Below, one piece after another: positions 33,784 through 45,839 of a stretch of 64,000 nucleotides of DNA. This DNA comes from Arabidopsis thaliana (taxonomy: Eukaryota > Streptophyta > Magnoliopsida > Brassicales > Brassicaceae): assembly GCF_000001735.4 (NCBI RefSeq), contig NC_003074.8:1612101-1676100 (forward strand). The letters are read 5' to 3'. Each line of letters begins with the position of its first letter. Within the stretch, counting starts at the first letter, position 1. Below the pieces are notes generated by a model. It did not search any database, was not told the DNA's origin, and saw only the letters and a list, made by a program, of their open reading frames with translations. The translations under genes and the position numbers were made by a program.

Positions 33784-36390
33784 TTATTGCTTTCTCCTCA
33801 ATCTTTTTTCATGTGCAGAGGGTTGTAAGTGGCCAAAGGTATGCATGAACCAATCTGGTTTGTAGAAAACCAGTATGTATCTAATCGTCAATCCAAAGGC
33901 AATACCAGGTCCGAATCCTATTGCAGCTGCTATCCAACTGAACACCTCTCTGTCTTCTTCCTCTAACTCTGGCGGTTCATGTTGTTGCGGTGCTGGTGCA
34001 TGAATATCTAAACAAACTTCTTCAAGTGAAGAGCCATAAAGTCCAGGGTTGTCCTTGAAAGAAGAGCAGTTTTGTCGACGAAACTGAGTTCCCCCTGGTA
34101 CTAGACCTCCAAGCTGGTTGTGAGAGAAGTTCATGTAGGCAAGGTACGATAGGTTCCCTAATTCTTGTGGAATTTCTCCTGAAAGCTTGTTTTGAGAAAC
34201 GTCCAGTGACTCGAGCTCTCTAAGATTCCCCATAGATGATGGGATGTGGCCGGTGAAAGCATTGCTTGACAAGTTAAGAACATGAAGCTCTTTCAAAAGA
34301 CCGATGGATCTTGGAATCTCTCCTTCTAATTTGTTTTCAGAAAAGTCGAGAGCTGTGTAGATTTTTAGGATGCGTACCAGCTCCATCTCTAAGCCTTTAT
34401 TCATCAAAACCACTGAATCATGGTAATATCGAAAAGAGTCTCCCATGTATTTCTCTTGAGACCGATCCTCGGTTGCCATAAGTGATGACATAGCATTCCA
34501 GTTCACAAAATAGTTTGCTGGCAAAGTTCCACTGAATTGATTATGAGATAAGTTGATGATTCGCAATGTATGGAACGAGGCATGATGTATCGGTCCGTGG
34601 AATGCATTGGAGCGTAAGACAAGAACTTGCAGCTTTTTGAGAGAAGACAACCAGAACGGGAATGTGTCGTTGATTCTGTTGTTTTCCACATTCAGAACTT
34701 CAAGAGCAGAGAGACGGATGAAAGATCTAGGAAGTTTTCCGACTAGTTGGTTATGACCGACATCAAGTGACCTTAGACTTTTAAATATACTCCTTGGAAG
34801 ACCTCCACCAAGACGATTCTGACGAAGGTTTAGAAATGAAAGAGTACTCTTAAGGTTTCCCATACATGGAGGGATGGAACCATTGAGGTTGTTGTCAGAT
34901 AAATCAAGAGTGATTAGAGAGCGCAAAGCGCATATGAAAGAGGGAATCTTTCCCGTGAAATTGTTGTTGGAGCCAACCAAGTACTGCATAGATGGTTTGG
35001 TGATTAAGGATAGTCCATGTTCCGTTGATCTTTCAAAACCGGTAAAAATGTTGTTGGAAAGATCAACGAATATCAACTTTGGTAGTGTCCATAGCCAGCC
35101 AGGCACCTGACCTTTGATTTTGTTGTTGGAAATGTCTAGATTCGTCATTTTGTGTTGGCTTCTTAAGAGCTCCGGGAACTCAGTGATGCCGCATCCAGAC
35201 AAGTACAACTGACTTATCAATTGCGTAGGATGATGATCTGCAACTGAAATTTTGGTTGTGGCTGAAACATGGTTGCCTGAGAGATCCATTGAATAGATTG
35301 AGTTGAGATGCGAGGAAAAGAGTGCATTCAAGTCAATCGTAGTGGTGGTGTTCAAATGAGATAGGTTAAGAAGTTGGAGCGACTTGAGATTCGTGAAGAT
35401 ACTAAAGTCAACTGGGCCTTGGGTGTTGAGATGAGAAAGATCAAGGTCCTGAAGGTTTATAAATTTGGAAATGGATTTCGGGATTGGCCCTATGAAGTTG
35501 TTATTGCTAATGTCTAACACAGTTAGTGTAGATGGTGAAGATATGTTCCCAAACTCAAGAGTGCCGTTGAGTTGGTTATTTCTCAAATTAATAGACGTCA
35601 AAGAAGCAATAGTGAAGAGAGAAGAAGGGAGAGTTCCAGTAAAAGCGTTGCCCCATGCCTCAAAGTACTCCAAGTTAGAGAGTGAGCTCATGTTAGAAGG
35701 AAGGGTACCTGTGAACTGATTGCGGGAGAGTGATAAATCCGAAAGATGTTTCAGATTGAGTAGGGAAAGGGGGAAGATACCAGTAAGGTCATTGGAATCA
35801 ACATATAAGTTGGTCAACTGGTTCATGTTGCCAAAAAATGGCATTTCACCAACGAACTCGTTACCAGAAAGGTCGAGAAAAGTGAGTTGTGAAAGATTTC
35901 CTATTGAAGAAGGAATCCCACCACTGAAATAGTTTTTAGAAAGGTCGAGAGTGGTAAGATGAGAAAAGTTTTCAATACAAGACGGGATTTGGCCACTGAA
36001 ATAATTATAGGAAAGGTCGAGAGTGGTTAGAAAACGAAGATTTAGAACCGTAAAAAGACTGCTGTTGGAATGAAACCGGCTTTGGAGGCAGCTACGACTA
36101 AGGTCTAGCTCAAGCACTTCCCCGGACTTGTCATTGCACGTGATACCGTCCCAATAGCAACAGTCACTGTTATTCGCCCATGACTCCGTCGTCGGATGAA
36201 GGCCGTCGAAACAAGGCTTCTTAATCTTAAACTCCTTCTTGAGCTCCAGTAGTGCATCTCTTTGTTCGAGACGACATAAGTGTTTAGTAGGAACCCCAAA
36301 GACATCTTGAAAATCAAAAGTGAATAAGAAGAATATGAGAGAAGAAAAAGTGAAAGGAATGATACTCGTTGAGTTCCAAGAGTCTTTCAT
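33784..36390 (-). CDS. RLP32: leucine-rich-repeat receptor-like protein (single exon)
   Basis: An uninterrupted 868-codon minus-strand ORF. It has an N-terminal signal peptide with a hydrophobic core ([11 protein letters not shown]), then an LRR N-cap with Cys ([27 protein letters not shown]). About 20 plant-type extracellular LRRs (LxxLxLSxNxFxGxIP) follow, interrupted by an island around the [16 protein letters not shown] stretch. Then come the conserved last LRRs, an acidic juxtamembrane stretch ([10 protein letters not shown]) and one membrane helix with GxxxG-like spacing ([18 protein letters not shown]). A short cytosolic tail without kinase ends the protein. Such RLPs signal through SOBIR1 and BAK1. 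RLP32 is reported to sense bacterial translation initiation factor 1. The order matches At3g05650. Confidence 0.95.
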
Positions 36391-36647
36391 CGTTCTTCAA
36401 GCTAATGAAACAAAAAAAAGCAGAGAAAAATGGAAATTGGTAACTCTTTTTTTTTGTGTGTGTATGTGTGTGTGATGGTAATATTGGGTTTCATGCTCAT
36501 CTCTTTATACATAATAATAGACTACTCCACAAAGATAAATTCACTGGCTTGACTCAATAACTTGTCTTTCAACCAAGTCTTCTTTACGTTGGATACAGAG
36601 AGTAAAAGTCTCTGCGTTGAATTGTCAACATTACAAGTCTTGGTATG

Positions 36648-36689
<42 letters not shown>

Positions 36690-37249
36690 GTATGTCTTCT
36701 TTATGTTGTTTTTCCTAACGAAATGGAAAAAAAAATAGAAGCATAGCAAAAATTACGTGAATTTTCATTACACAACCGGTTTTGAACAATTTCTATATGT
36801 AGTGGTTAAACCATGTTGAGAATTTGGTATTACAGTAACCGACATATCAATTCCAATATGTCAACATCTAATACAAAAATACAAAAAAAAGATAGAAATT
36901 TACAGGAATCTCTCCACTAAGCATGCGCTCGCTAGTCGCTACCTTCCATGATTAATGTCCATGAATGTCTTCGTCTTCTTCTTGTAATTATTACTTTCTC
37001 CGTACAACGTTGCTTTCTTCGCCGACGTCTTTCATTAATGGGCCTAAATTATGTAAGCAAGCCCATTTTATCAGCCCAATTTCGAATTCACATAACGATC
37101 CTCCTGCTTTATTCCTCCATCTTCTTCTTCTCGAACGAACGTCTTCAATTCCGTGATTTAGGATTTCTTATTTGCAAATCAAAGTTAAGAAGGATGATCA
37201 AAATTCAATTCTGATAGTGCAACGATTGATTCTATTGAAAGGTTTCAAG
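36391..37249. promoter_or_regulatory. RLP32 promoter region, with poly(T) tract and duplicated distal block
   Basis: It contains a GT-rich run (36452-36476) next to the start codon, and a 39-base T run at 36650-36688 bounded by a 12-bp direct repeat. A block at about 36935-37200 recurs upstream of RLP33 at about 40095-40320, including TGGGCC at 37039-37044. The ORF at 36948-37214 lies in this block and is not supported. Confidence 0.7.
36640..36698. repeat. 39-base poly(T) tract bounded by a 12-bp direct repeat
   Basis: TTGGTATGTCTT at 36640-36651 is repeated exactly at 36687-36698, with only T residues between (the T run is 36650-36688). A homopolymer flanked by what looks like a target-site duplication resembles a poly(A)-tail insertion made by LINE machinery. 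Slippage after a local duplication is the alternative. Confidence 0.8.
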
Positions 37250-39901
37250 TTATAGAGAACAAAACGTTAAGGGAAAAGGTACCTCAGAACGAGTTCGTCT
37301 GCGTCTACGACTGTTGTTGATGTACAACACCTTGAAGAACCAACGCGGTTTGGAGGAAAGCACGATGTGCCCAATGGTCAATCCAAGCACGATACCAGGT
37401 GTGAACCCTATGGCAGCTGCAATCCAACTCAAGACTTGTTCTGATTCCAATGTTTCTGATTCCCCTGAAGGCGTCGGCTCATGGACAACTCTACATTCTT
37501 CGAGAGGACGACCACAAAGTCCAAGGTTTTCTTCAAAAGACGAAGCGGATTGCGTTCGAAACTGGGTGCCTCCTGGTACTTGACCGACAAGCTGGTTATG
37601 AGAAAAGTTCATGTACGCAAGGTACGAGAGGTTCCCTAGTTCTTGTGGAATTTCTCCTGAAAGCTTGTTTCGGGAAACATCCAGTGACTCGAGCTCTCTC
37701 AGGTTCCCCATAGATGATGGGATGTGGCCGGTGAAACCATTGCTTGACAAGTTGAGGATATGAAGTTCTTTCAATAGACCGATGGATCTTGGAATCTCTC
37801 CTTCAAATTTGTTTCCAGAGAAGTCGAGAGCTGTATAGATTTTTAGGATACGTACCAGCTCCATCTCTAAGCCTTTATTCATCAGAACCATTGAATCATG
37901 GTAATAGCCTGATCCCATGTACTTTTCGTTAAACCGATCTTCATTTTTTTCAAGTGAGTGCATCCCAGTCCACTCCACAAAGCAATCTGATGGCAATGTC
38001 CCATTGAAGTGATTACGGGATATGTCGATGATTCGCAACTTAGGAAACCGAGTCTTGTGTATCCGTCCGTGAAATGCGTTGGAGCGTAAGACAAGAACTT
38101 GCAGCTTTTTTAGAGAACTCAACCAGAACGGAAACGTGTCGTTGATTCTGTTGCTTTCTACATTCAAAACTTCAAGAGTAGAGAAGTGGATCAAAGATCT
38201 TGGAAGCTTTCCCTCCAGTTCGTTATGACTCACATCAAGAGACCTTAAACTTTTTATTATAGTCTTTGGAAGACTTCCACTAAGACGATTCCGACGTAGG
38301 TTAAGATCTGAAAGAGTACTCTTGAATTTTCCCACACAAGGAGGGATTGCACCACTGAAGTTGTTGTTAGATAAATCGAGAATGATTAGAGAGCGCAACG
38401 AGCATATGAAAGATGGAATCTTTCCACTGAAATTGTTATTGGAGCCAAAAAAGTGCTTCATAGATGGTTTTGGGACTACGGTTTTTTCAAGTTTCGTTGA
38501 TCTTTCGAAACCGATGAAATTGTTGTTGGAGATATGCATGTACTCCAACTGTAATAGTAACCAGCTAGGCACTTGGCCTTTGATTTTGTTGTTGGAAATG
38601 TCTAGCGTCCTCATTTGGCGTTGCGTTCTTAGGATATCTGGAAACTCGGTGATACCGCATCCTGATAAGTTCAAAGAGCCTATCAATCCCAAAGGAGGGT
38701 CAGAAACTGAACTTTTGTTTGTGACTAAAACATGGTTGCCTGAGAGATCCAATGAAATGAGCATCTTGAAACATGATAAGACTGCATTCAAGTCAATTGT
38801 AGTGGTGGTGTTGGAATGGGATAGGTAAAGGTTTCCTAGCAACTTGAGATGCGAGAAGATATTAAAGTCAACTTGGCCTTGGATGTTGAAATGGGAAAGG
38901 TCAAGTGTCCTAAGGTTGACTAATCTGGAAATAGATGTAGGGATTGGACCTCTCAAGTTGTTACCGCCAAGTTGTAACACTAGTAAATTAGACGGTGAAG
39001 ATATATTCCCAAACTCAAGAGTGCCGCTGAGTTGGTTATTGTCCAAAAAAATAAGAGTTATAGAAGGAATGGTGAAGAGAGAGGAAGGGATAGTTCCAAC
39101 GAAATTGTTTCCACTTGCCGAAAAGGACTCCAAGATGGAGAGTGAAGTGATGTTAGGAGGAAGCGTGCCTGTGAACTGATTGTGAGAGAGTGATATCTCT
39201 GACAACTTTGTAAGATTGATTACTTCAAGTGGGAGGTTACCACTAAGCTTATTATTATCAAGACGTAAAATAGACAATTGGTTCAAACTGCCAAAAGAAG
39301 AAGGGATTTCACCAACAAAATTGTTAGTAGATAGGTCGAGAAAGGTGAGATACGACAGATTTCCAAGTGAAGATGGGATTTCACCACCAAAATTGTTATC
39401 ATAGAGGTGGAGAGAGGTGAGGTGAAAAAGGTTTCCAAGGGAAGAAGGAATCCAACCACTGAAGTTATTTCCAGAAAGGTCGAGAGTGGTGAGATGAGAA
39501 AGGTTTCCAATAGAAGATGAGATTTGACCACTCAAATGATTATATGAAAGGTCTAGAGTGGTTAGAAAATGGAAATTTTGAAGCATAGAAAGATTACTGT
39601 TGGAATGAAACCAGCCATGGAGGCAGCTGCACATAAGGTCTATCTCGATTACTTCCCCGGTCTTAGCATCGCAAGTAATACCATCCCAATGACAACAGTC
39701 GCTGCCATTCTCCCATGACTTTGTCTTCAGAGGACTTGGACAACCAAAACAAGGCTTCTTAATCTTAAACTCGTTCTTGAACTCGAGAAGTGCATCTCTT
39801 TGTTCGAAATGACATAAGTGTATATTAGGAACAGCAAAAACACCTCGAAAATTAGAAAAGAACAAGAAGAGAAAATAAAAAGTAATAGGAATGAGACTCA
39901 T
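37250..39901 (-). CDS. RLP33: leucine-rich-repeat receptor-like protein, tandem paralog of RLP32
   Basis: An open frame of 883 codons on the minus strand. It has the same layout as RLP32: signal peptide (YFLFLFFSNF), Cys-rich LRR cap ([27 protein letters not shown]), about 21 LRRs, an island at KYMGSGYYHDSMVLM, an acidic stretch (SGESETLESEQ), one membrane helix ([18 protein letters not shown]) and a short basic tail (NNSRRRRRTRSE). A good donor (GAG|GTACC) lies just after the RRRRRTRSE codons, near 37281. The true C-terminus may therefore come from a short second exon, and the last ~10 ORF residues may be intron. It is presumably a cell-surface immune receptor; its ligand is unknown to me. 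The order matches At3g05660. Confidence 0.92.
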   Translation of the reverse strand: MSLIPITFYFLFLFFSNFRGVFAVPNIHLCHFEQRDALLEFKNEFKIKKPCFGCPSPLKTKSWENGSDCCHWDGITCDAKTGEVIEIDLMCSCLHGWFHSNSNLSMLQNFHFLTTLDLSYNHLSGQISSSIGNLSHLTTLDLSGNNFSGWIPSSLGNLFHLTSLHLYDNNFGGEIPSSLGNLSYLTFLDLSTNNFVGEIPSSFGSLNQLSILRLDNNKLSGNLPLEVINLTKLSEISLSHNQFTGTLPPNITSLSILESFSASGNNFVGTIPSSLFTIPSITLIFLDNNQLSGTLEFGNISSPSNLLVLQLGGNNLRGPIPTSISRLVNLRTLDLSHFNIQGQVDFNIFSHLKLLGNLYLSHSNTTTTIDLNAVLSCFKMLISLDLSGNHVLVTNKSSVSDPPLGLIGSLNLSGCGITEFPDILRTQRQMRTLDISNNKIKGQVPSWLLLQLEYMHISNNNFIGFERSTKLEKTVVPKPSMKHFFGSNNNFSGKIPSFICSLRSLIILDLSNNNFSGAIPPCVGKFKSTLSDLNLRRNRLSGSLPKTIIKSLRSLDVSHNELEGKLPRSLIHFSTLEVLNVESNRINDTFPFWLSSLKKLQVLVLRSNAFHGRIHKTRFPKLRIIDISRNHFNGTLPSDCFVEWTGMHSLEKNEDRFNEKYMGSGYYHDSMVLMNKGLEMELVRILKIYTALDFSGNKFEGEIPRSIGLLKELHILNLSSNGFTGHIPSSMGNLRELESLDVSRNKLSGEIPQELGNLSYLAYMNFSHNQLVGQVPGGTQFRTQSASSFEENLGLCGRPLEECRVVHEPTPSGESETLESEQVLSWIAAAIGFTPGIVLGLTIGHIVLSSKPRWFFKVLYINNSRRRRRTRSEVPFPLTFCSL

Positions 39902-41787
39902 TGACTTCTATGAGGTTTTGCTTCTCCTTTAAAATGAAAGAGCAAAAATGGGAATTGTGATGGTTATATGGTTTCATGCCAATCTCTTTATATACATAAT
40001 AATAGACTCTGAACTCGACAAAGATTAAAATCAACTCAGCTTGTATTTTTACCAAGTCTTCTTGACGTTGAACAGAGAGTAGTAAAAAGTCTTTGTCCAT
40101 TAAGCACTACCTCCCATAATTTATGGTCCATGAAATGTCTTCGTCTTCTTGTATGTTTGCGTTCTTTGCCGACGTCTTTCATGACTGGGCCTAACTTAAG
40201 TATTTTCACTTTTAATTAACGAAAGCCCAATTCGGAATGCACCTAACGATCATGATTGCTACTTCTTTCTTCGGTTCCCTGATTTTAAGCTTTCTTATTT
40301 GCAAAACAAAGTAAAGATTATTACATTTAAATAGCATAAAATCGGGCCTAGTTGATCTTTTACTTTGCCGTCAATTCATCAAGAAACGTTTTCCTCATGT
40401 TTTTTCTTCGGCAGAAGTTATATATGCCGATGAAATGAATCCTAATTAAATTTCGTTAAAGTAAATTGTCGGCCTTAGGCCCAAAGCTCTTCTTGTGTAC
40501 CCATTGAGCCAACCCTCATCAACAACAGATGGTCGAATAATAACATGGGCTTTGATGATTTCTAATAGAAAACAGCAATGGAAATTTTGGATAAAGCAAA
40601 AATGCAAGTCAAAACCTACAAAATTTAGTATCGTCCAAATATTATTCTAGGTAAGGAATCTCTTAATCCATGCTCCAAATCGCTGGTTTGAAAACATAAA
40701 ATAAACTTTCACTAGAAAATGCATTAAGATAACTGAAAATGTGAAAAGGTAACCCAGAAAATTTTACCTGGTTTTGTAGTATGTAATTCTTTTGGTCTTC
40801 TTTATTAGTTTTTTTAATAAATATTTATGGCCGTTACATTTTCATCTGAAACATTCAAATCAACATCTGCTAAAAATAGTAACTTCATAATCGTTTTATT
40901 TCCCACTGATTCATCATTAAATAAAAATATCCAGGGATCAGATTATAACCGTCCGATGCAAAACATTACGGTACGCTTGACCACAGAGCATAGCTGTCTC
41001 ACGTGCTCACGCAATCATACCAAATATTAAAAGTCAAAAAAGCCCAATAGCAGCTGCAACTACCACCAGAAGCGGTCGAGGGTAATATAGTCATTACACA
41101 AAAAGTTCTCACCTCCCCAACGCGTAGCCTCTTAACTAAAACCAAATCAAAATACCTTTCCCCAATTTTGGCTCATTACCAAAAAAAAAAAAAATAGTTG
41201 TAAATAGAGAGAAAAATAAGGCGGGGAAAAGGATCACGATTCACAAAATTAGTGGAAAAATCATAAGTGTTTCGTCTTCTTCATCGGAGGTTCGTTTTTT
41301 TTTTCTAATTGTTCTTCTCTCTCGTTCTTCTGTGTATGTATTATAGGAGCTGTAATTTAATTTTGTATTATTATTTTTTCGTGTTTTGACTTTTTATTTT
41401 TCTCTCTTTTCATTAAATTTATGTGTTTCCAGGGGTGATTTCTGCATTTGGATAGATTTTGATTTCTATTATAGGATCGGAATTTAAACACTAGCATTTA
41501 AGTAGTAATTTTGGGTAACTGTAGAATTTCTATGGTCGGAATCAAATCGATACCTTTTCTGATTTTCAATTACGTTTCTTGATTTCTTGTTTGTTTTTGG
41601 GTTGATTTGCAGATCTCGTGCTCTGAATTCGAGAATTGAGGTTTGAGATTTCTGGGTGATTTGGTCTAGGCTATATAAGTTTTTAGAACAAGACGGAGCT
41701 GAAGGAATCATTGTGTTTTTGGTTGATGAGTTTAGATTTAGATTAGTGCCTTAGTGGTTTGTTTCTATATCTTATTTTGAGGAGCAT
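39902..41787. promoter_or_regulatory. RLP33 promoter, intergenic DNA and leader of the RING/PHD gene
   Basis: 39902-40330 matches the RLP32 upstream region (duplicated promoter), with TGGGCC at 40186-40191. 40330-41150 is AT-rich with no gene. From about 41220 a leader-like stretch begins, and a probable 5'-UTR intron (donor near 41290, acceptor near 41612) precedes the ATG at 41788. Confidence 0.55.
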
Positions 41788-44922: not shown

Positions 44923-45581
44923 ACCCACTTGCTTCAATTGTCTAGATTTGTTAGAAAATTCAATTTCTTTTGTTAAGATCCTCAATCATTACTTTTAGCA
45001 TTGTACATGATGATACAAGTGCGATTAATTTTCATTAAAAAAGAAGTTTAACTTTTTATGTTCGACTGTTACTACTATGCAGTACTGTGTGCAACAAAGA
45101 CAAGAACAGTTGAATTATATATGAAAAAGCTTATCAAGTTGGATACGAACTGTGGCCTTTATCCGAGTAGTAATTGAGTTTGGGCCACCGGCCCACCATA
45201 AATTAGCGTAAGCCTACCCGTCACTCAGTTCAGAAAAACAAAACTAAAAGGACTTGTGCACTTTTACAAAGTGAGAACGGCGGAAAGTGTGGAACTTGGT
45301 AACAAGAAACGAAACCTTTTTGTGAAACCTACCTCGCAGGTGGTAAAACAAGCGTCTTCTGTGACGTGGCGGATTTCCCAGTCCATGAGGGTCGTAGGAT
45401 TCGTGATATTATCTGAGTAAATAATTGACTTTGGGCCACCAAGGAGACCGGCCCAGTAGAGAATCTAACTAAAGCGTTTCATTAAACCTTTCCGACAAGC
45501 TATTCAGAAAGCGAATATAAAAACGACACGCTGTGCATGTTCAAAAAGTTAGAACGACGAAAATGTGGAGTTTAGCAAAAA

Positions 45582-45592
45582 GTCCCACATCG
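45582..45592 (+). promoter_or_regulatory. USE of the U1 snRNA gene
   Basis: GTCCCACATCG matches the plant snRNA upstream sequence element consensus RTCCCACATCG exactly. It lies about 65-75 bases before the predicted 5' end. Confidence 0.93.
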
Positions 45593-45626
45593 TTAATAAG
45601 AAACAAGAGAAGCTCCGGGAACAGGG

Positions 45627-45634
45627 TATAAATA
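45627..45634 (+). promoter_or_regulatory. TATA box of the U1 snRNA gene
   Basis: TATAAATA starts 34 bases after the end of the USE and about 30 bases before the RNA. In plants a ~33-34-base USE-TATA gap specifies RNA polymerase II; Pol III snRNA genes have about 10 bases less. Confidence 0.9.
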
Positions 45635-45656
45635 AGAGAGTCATGACTTTGAGCAA

Positions 45657-45822
45657 ATCACTTACCTGGACGGGGTCAACTCGCGATCAAGAAGACGAGT
45701 GGCCTAGGCTAGTGACTCCCATTGCACATACCGGGAGGGTGCTATGCTTAAGGTCTTCCCTAGAGGAAGAGCCTACGTCATTATTTGTGGCAGCGGGGGT
45801 TTGCGTTCGCGCAGCCCCTACC
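45657..45822 (+). ncRNA. U1: U1 spliceosomal snRNA (sequence-variant copy)
   Basis: A 166-base RNA with all U1 parts in order. The 5'-splice-site recognition stretch ACTTACCTG is at 45660-45668. Stem-loop I has loop GATCAAGAAG, the U1-70K site. Stem-loop II has ATTGCAC in the loop, the U1A site. Stem III is AGGTCTTCC / GGAAGAGCCT. The Sm site is at about 45782-45790 (TATTTGTGG). The 3' stem-loop has the GCGTTCGCGC tip. Stems I and II differ from the common U1 sequence I remember, but remain paired (ACTCG/CGAGT; CTCCC/GGGAG). A USE and TATA precede it and a 3' box follows, so it looks expressible. It base-pairs with pre-mRNA 5' splice sites. No coding ORF here is real. Confidence 0.92.
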
Positions 45823-45839
45823 ATTTATTTTCAGTCTAA
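45822..45839 (+). terminator. snRNA 3' box
   Basis: CA (45822-45823), nine bases, then AGTCTAA (45833-45839) fits the plant snRNA 3'-end signal CA(N)3-10AGTNNAA directly after the U1 3' stem-loop. Confidence 0.8.

Follow-up and report, generated by a model that had tools for sequence, protein, structure and literature searches.

The U1 snRNA genes of Arabidopsis thaliana were catalogued in 2004 by Wang and Brendel (PMC545797), who count 14 U1 copies, consider 10 of these likely to be active, and describe seven U1-U4 clusters in which atU1-7 is not given as a member. Table 1 of that catalogue places atU1-7 (At3g05672) on the plus strand of chromosome 3 at 1657766-1657928 and atU1-6 (At3g05695) at 1681815; the atU1-7 entry has no pseudogene mark and carries a cDNA accession, GenBank gi22293580, within the range of 14 snRNAs obtained by cDNA cloning. 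Plant Pol II snRNA genes are transcribed from a USE and a TATA box, and the 3′ processing of their RNAs depends on a 3′ box (PMC5079582). In Arabidopsis, U1-A, U1-70K, and Sm proteins are pulled down with a U1 antisense probe, a result given for U1 as a whole and not copy by copy (PMC11489095).

The window analysed here is a stretch of 64,000 nucleotides of chromosome 3 (1612101-1676100). The Rfam U1 covariance model (RF00003) matched its plus strand over the full length of the model (positions 1-166) with 126.2 bits and an E value of 1.6e-31. Given the cut-off of 69.5 this is a high score, where the first-pass annotation, which had read the locus as a divergent U1 snRNA gene, had named a low covariance score as the result that would speak against it. 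As this was the only RNA family match at gathering score in the 64 kb, the idea of an snRNA cluster at the locus was dropped; two further weak RNA matches in 30000-64000 (E values of 0.55 and 0.62) were both far under their own cut-offs. On the minus strand at 33784-39907, the window also carries two long tandem open frames of 870 and 885 aa, which share 78-85% DNA identity over repeated pieces and by eye seem to resemble leucine-rich-repeat receptor-like proteins.

The U1 gene agrees with the catalogued atU1-7 in chromosome, strand, and length (163 bases, which according to the catalogue begin at position 4 of atU1a), and the start-to-start spacing to atU1-6 is 24,049 bases both on the present contig (1657758 and 1681807) and in the catalogue, whose Release 5 coordinates are 8 bases higher than ours. 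Therefore, the gene was taken as atU1-7 / At3g05672, and it is already known, having been catalogued in 2004 as one of about 10 likely working U1 copies. The other U1 loci were likewise named by matching strand and coordinates to Table 1 of PMC545797, with a shift of about 17.2 kb needed for three genes on chromosome 5. The features of the locus are collected in Table 1.

Table 1. Features of the atU1-7 locus, in positions of the 64,000-nucleotide window
Feature	Position	Strand	Sequence	Basis or remark
Stretch common with atU1-6	45543..45835	+		97.6% identity over 293 bases; 7 mismatches, all outside the RNA
USE	45582..45592	+	GTCCCACATCG	pattern search
TATA box	45627..45634	+	TATAAATA	34 bases past the USE
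U1 snRNA atU1-7 / At3g05672	45658..45820	+		ends of the RF00003 model, so RNA ends are model-predicted; name per Table 1 of PMC545797
5′ splice site recognition	45660..45668	+	ACTTACCTG	sequence match; invariant across the 10 aligned copies
Stem I, 5′ arm	45679..45683	+	ACTCG	same in 9 of 10 copies
Loop I	45685..45694	+	GATCAAGAAG	sequence and Rfam model
Stem I, 3′ arm	45696..45700	+	CGAGT	same in 10 of 10 copies
Stem II, 5′ arm	45716..45720	+	CTCCC	private C at 45718
Loop II motif	45721..45727	+	ATTGCAC	sequence match
Stem II, 3′ arm	45733..45737	+	GGGAG	private G at 45735, paired with 45718
Sm site	45783..45790	+	ATTTGTGG	sequence and Rfam model
3′ terminal stem-loop and preceding base	45794..45819	+		predicted fold; private unpaired C at 45794
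3′ box	45822..45839	+	CATTTATTTTCAGTCTAA	exact fit to CAN3-10AGTNNAA

All the U1 landmarks reported in the first pass could be assigned exact positions. The recognition sequence ACUUACCUG expected for RF00003 is present at 45660-45668, and four stem-loops, the U1-70K and U1A loop motifs, and the Sm site were found from the model, the predicted fold, and the sequence. In U1 snRNA, loop I binds U1-70K and the ATTGCAC motif of loop II binds U1A. The predicted fold contains both stem I and stem II, though the pairing of stem I is slightly shifted at its outer A. The RNA does not stand out by its folding energy (z -1.46; 22 of 200 shuffled sequences folded equally well or better), which makes minimum free energy a weak proof of structure; the evidence for the fold is therefore the covariance-model match together with the alignment of the copies.

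For comparison, the whole genome (119,662,809 bases in 7 contigs) was searched with the U1 model, which gave 15 matches, 12 of them above the cut-off. Ten of the 15 loci (9 distinct sequences) combine a TATA-like sequence with a USE-like element that deviates from the pattern at no more than one position, and form the comparison set, including for the pair counts below; the TATA-like TATAAC of atU1a was missed by the pattern and spotted by eye. Left out were four loci (L011-L014), all designated p in PMC545797, and L015 (C4:12225774-12225936, plus strand), a weak U1-like stretch that starts at the end of atU1-2, scores 35.2 bits, below the cut-off, and is not listed separately in the table of 14 U1 genes in PMC545797.

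The promoter and 3′ elements of atU1-7 are intact, as the first reading had it. The USE, searched with the pattern RTCCCACATCG (PMC545797 prints RTCCACATCG), lies at -76 and the TATA box at -31, and this layout, including the 34-base gap, is that of plant Pol II snRNA genes and agrees with the sister genes. The 3′ box consensus was taken from PMC545797 and PMC5079582; in its strict form the box occurs at four of the 15 U1 loci and in two of the ten comparison copies, atU1-7 and atU1-2. When 2-5 bases are admitted between AGT and AA, it is found in nine of the ten, the exception being atU1a.

The view of this gene as a notably divergent U1 did not hold up. By Rfam score it ties for fifth place among the 15 matches, and it shares on average 91.8% identity with the other nine copies (about 90.8% when its identical twin is left out), compared with 90.6% averaged across all 45 pairs of the ten copies. 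Loop I of atU1-7 fits the Rfam consensus, from which five of the ten copies deviate. Both stems had been described as changed on both sides relative to the common U1 and yet paired. The pairing stands, but that reference fails in this genome, and stem I is no variant in the species, since nine of the ten copies have ACTCG/CGAGT on both arms, atU1a (ACTTG/CGAGT) being the exception. Stem II in the form CTCCC/GGGAG, taken whole, is limited to atU1-6 and atU1-7 among the ten copies. CTTCC/GGAAG is found in atU1-3 and atU1-5, ATTCC/GGAAG in atU1-2, and CCTCC/GGAGG in atU1a, while stem II starts with CCGC in atU1-4, atU1-8, and atU1-9 and with CCGG in atU1-10, where the alignment is less sure.

The nearest copy other than the twin is atU1-5 (At1g08115), which shows 96.9% identity with 5 differences and, together with its upstream region, aligns with the atU1-7 locus over 432 bases at 84%. 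It has T before ACTTACCTG, and two of the five differences face each other in stem II, where a U-A pair has become C-G; stem II of atU1-7 thus does contain a compensatory change, but is only a single base pair away from that of atU1-5. In a tree of the RNA alone (14 genes, support 17 to 97), atU1-5 did not group with atU1-6 and atU1-7 alone; when the promoter was added (11 genes, support 80 to 99), the three came together at 95. No conclusion is based on either tree.

Three bases in the ten-copy alignment are private to atU1-6 and atU1-7 (columns 61, 78, and 137; positions in Table 1), although the privacy of the C at 45718 depends on the alignment, three sister copies being gapped there. In addition, both genes have C instead of T at 45659, just before ACTTACCTG, a base that only atU1-10 shares among the other eight copies. 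Lying within stem II, ahead of the 3′ stem-loop, and beside ACTTACCTG, these bases could mark a minor isoform with tissue-specific expression, slightly different U1A binding, or a preference for 5′ splice sites that carry G at +7, and single U1 gene copies of Drosophila do show stage- and tissue-specific expression (PMC10645366). We regard such an isoform as very unlikely, as there is no change in ACTTACCTG or in the loop motifs for U1-70K and U1A, the stem II change preserves pairing, and the promoter layout is standard. It is just as doubtful that atU1-6 and atU1-7 are mildly specialised in some tissues, the C beside ACTTACCTG pairing with an intron +7 G and the altered U1A stem tuning U1A binding or 3′-end functions.

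Two other loci lack the ATTGCAC motif. The locus atU1-12p (At4g23565; C4:12298790-12298947, minus strand) is marked as a pseudogene in PMC545797, yet scores 106.9 bits. It has a TATA box at -32, an exact 3′ box, and a USE that is degenerate at 2 positions; by eye, its stem I is altered on both arms with pairing possible (ACGG/CCGT), and the ATTGCAC motif has been lost. To go by these sequence features, it may be a better candidate for a divergent U1 than atU1-7, although its predicted lowest-energy fold differs from the U1 fold. The copy atU1-10 (At1g11884; C1:4007239-4007399, minus strand), which bears no pseudogene mark in PMC545797, has a USE with one mismatch, a TATA box, and a U4 gene downstream, and its predicted lowest-energy fold is without the usual stem II. 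As it carries CCTGCAC in place of ATTGCAC, its RNA might be unable to bind U1A.

The first-pass annotation had taken paired change as the mark of an RNA kept by selection. Covariation was assessed over the predicted fold of atU1-7 (47 pairs, with pairs of the 5′ leader dropped) across the ten copies, and 98.3% of the 418 cells were paired. Changes on both sides were found in five of the 47 pairs and in 11 cells, against shuffle means of 2.0 and 3.1. On these measures and on the covariation score, the level of the real data was reached by none of 500 shuffles and by no slid version; on one of the five measures, the count of further pair types, the copies did not stand out, and 139 of 500 shuffles scored equally high. 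These shuffle and slide controls overstate the signal somewhat, because one of the aligned sequences supplied the structure and all the copies are related. Three of the five both-sided pairs fall in stem II, a count that partly relies on the less sure alignment of atU1-4, atU1-8, atU1-9, and atU1-10. We conclude that the fold is maintained in the U1 family; the claim of selection thus stands for the family, but this is not specific to atU1-7. U1 gene candidates of tomato, a different species, were reportedly described by Abel, Kiss, and Solymosy in 1989, and to judge by the title of that work, stem variation among plant U1 genes is old knowledge.

The RNA of atU1-6, 24 kb away, is identical to that of atU1-7 over all 163 bases. 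The two loci differ in the base after the USE, in four bases further upstream, and in the 3′ flank, where the 3′ box of atU1-6 has four bases between AGT and AA as against two in atU1-7. If differences were spread evenly, the chance that all 7 would fall outside the RNA is 0.003 (hypergeometric). A clean RNA between divergent flanks would follow from purifying selection as well as from gene conversion limited to the RNA part. The high identity over 293 bases also means that the identity of the RNAs may partly reflect recency or conversion, and atU1-7 could then be a silent or decaying copy that resembles its twin through recent duplication or gene conversion instead of selection. This is highly improbable, given the position of the 7 differences (a pattern that RNA-confined gene conversion would also give), the intact promoter and 3′ box, the high covariance score, and the catalogue entry in PMC545797. 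Because the twin RNAs are identical, data on the mature RNA cannot separate atU1-6 from atU1-7, whereas the flanks of their precursors could, and the gi22293580 cDNA probably cannot tell the two apart.

Taken together, these observations leave us highly confident that atU1-7 is an ordinary, normal A. thaliana U1 snRNA gene whose stem changes are structure-keeping drift in a multi-copy family. It is very probably active, the evidence for transcription being the cDNA accession cited in PMC545797, and it most likely contributes ordinary U1 snRNA to the common pool. As such a gene, atU1-7 would be transcribed by Pol II from its USE and TATA promoter, with the 3′ box helping to set the 3′ end of the RNA. 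From what is known of U1 biology, the RNA would be expected to assemble with U1-70K, U1A, U1C, and Sm proteins into an ordinary U1 snRNP, and this particle to pair with 5′ splice sites. The changes in the stems would have arisen among the family copies as drift that preserves structure.

Paired stem II changes recur among the U1 copies of one genome; thus, differing from an assumed reference on both sides of a stem does not point to an unusual isoform. If U1 copies had roles of their own, as reported for Drosophila (PMC10645366), the three bases private to atU1-6 and atU1-7 would provide a handle for measuring them.
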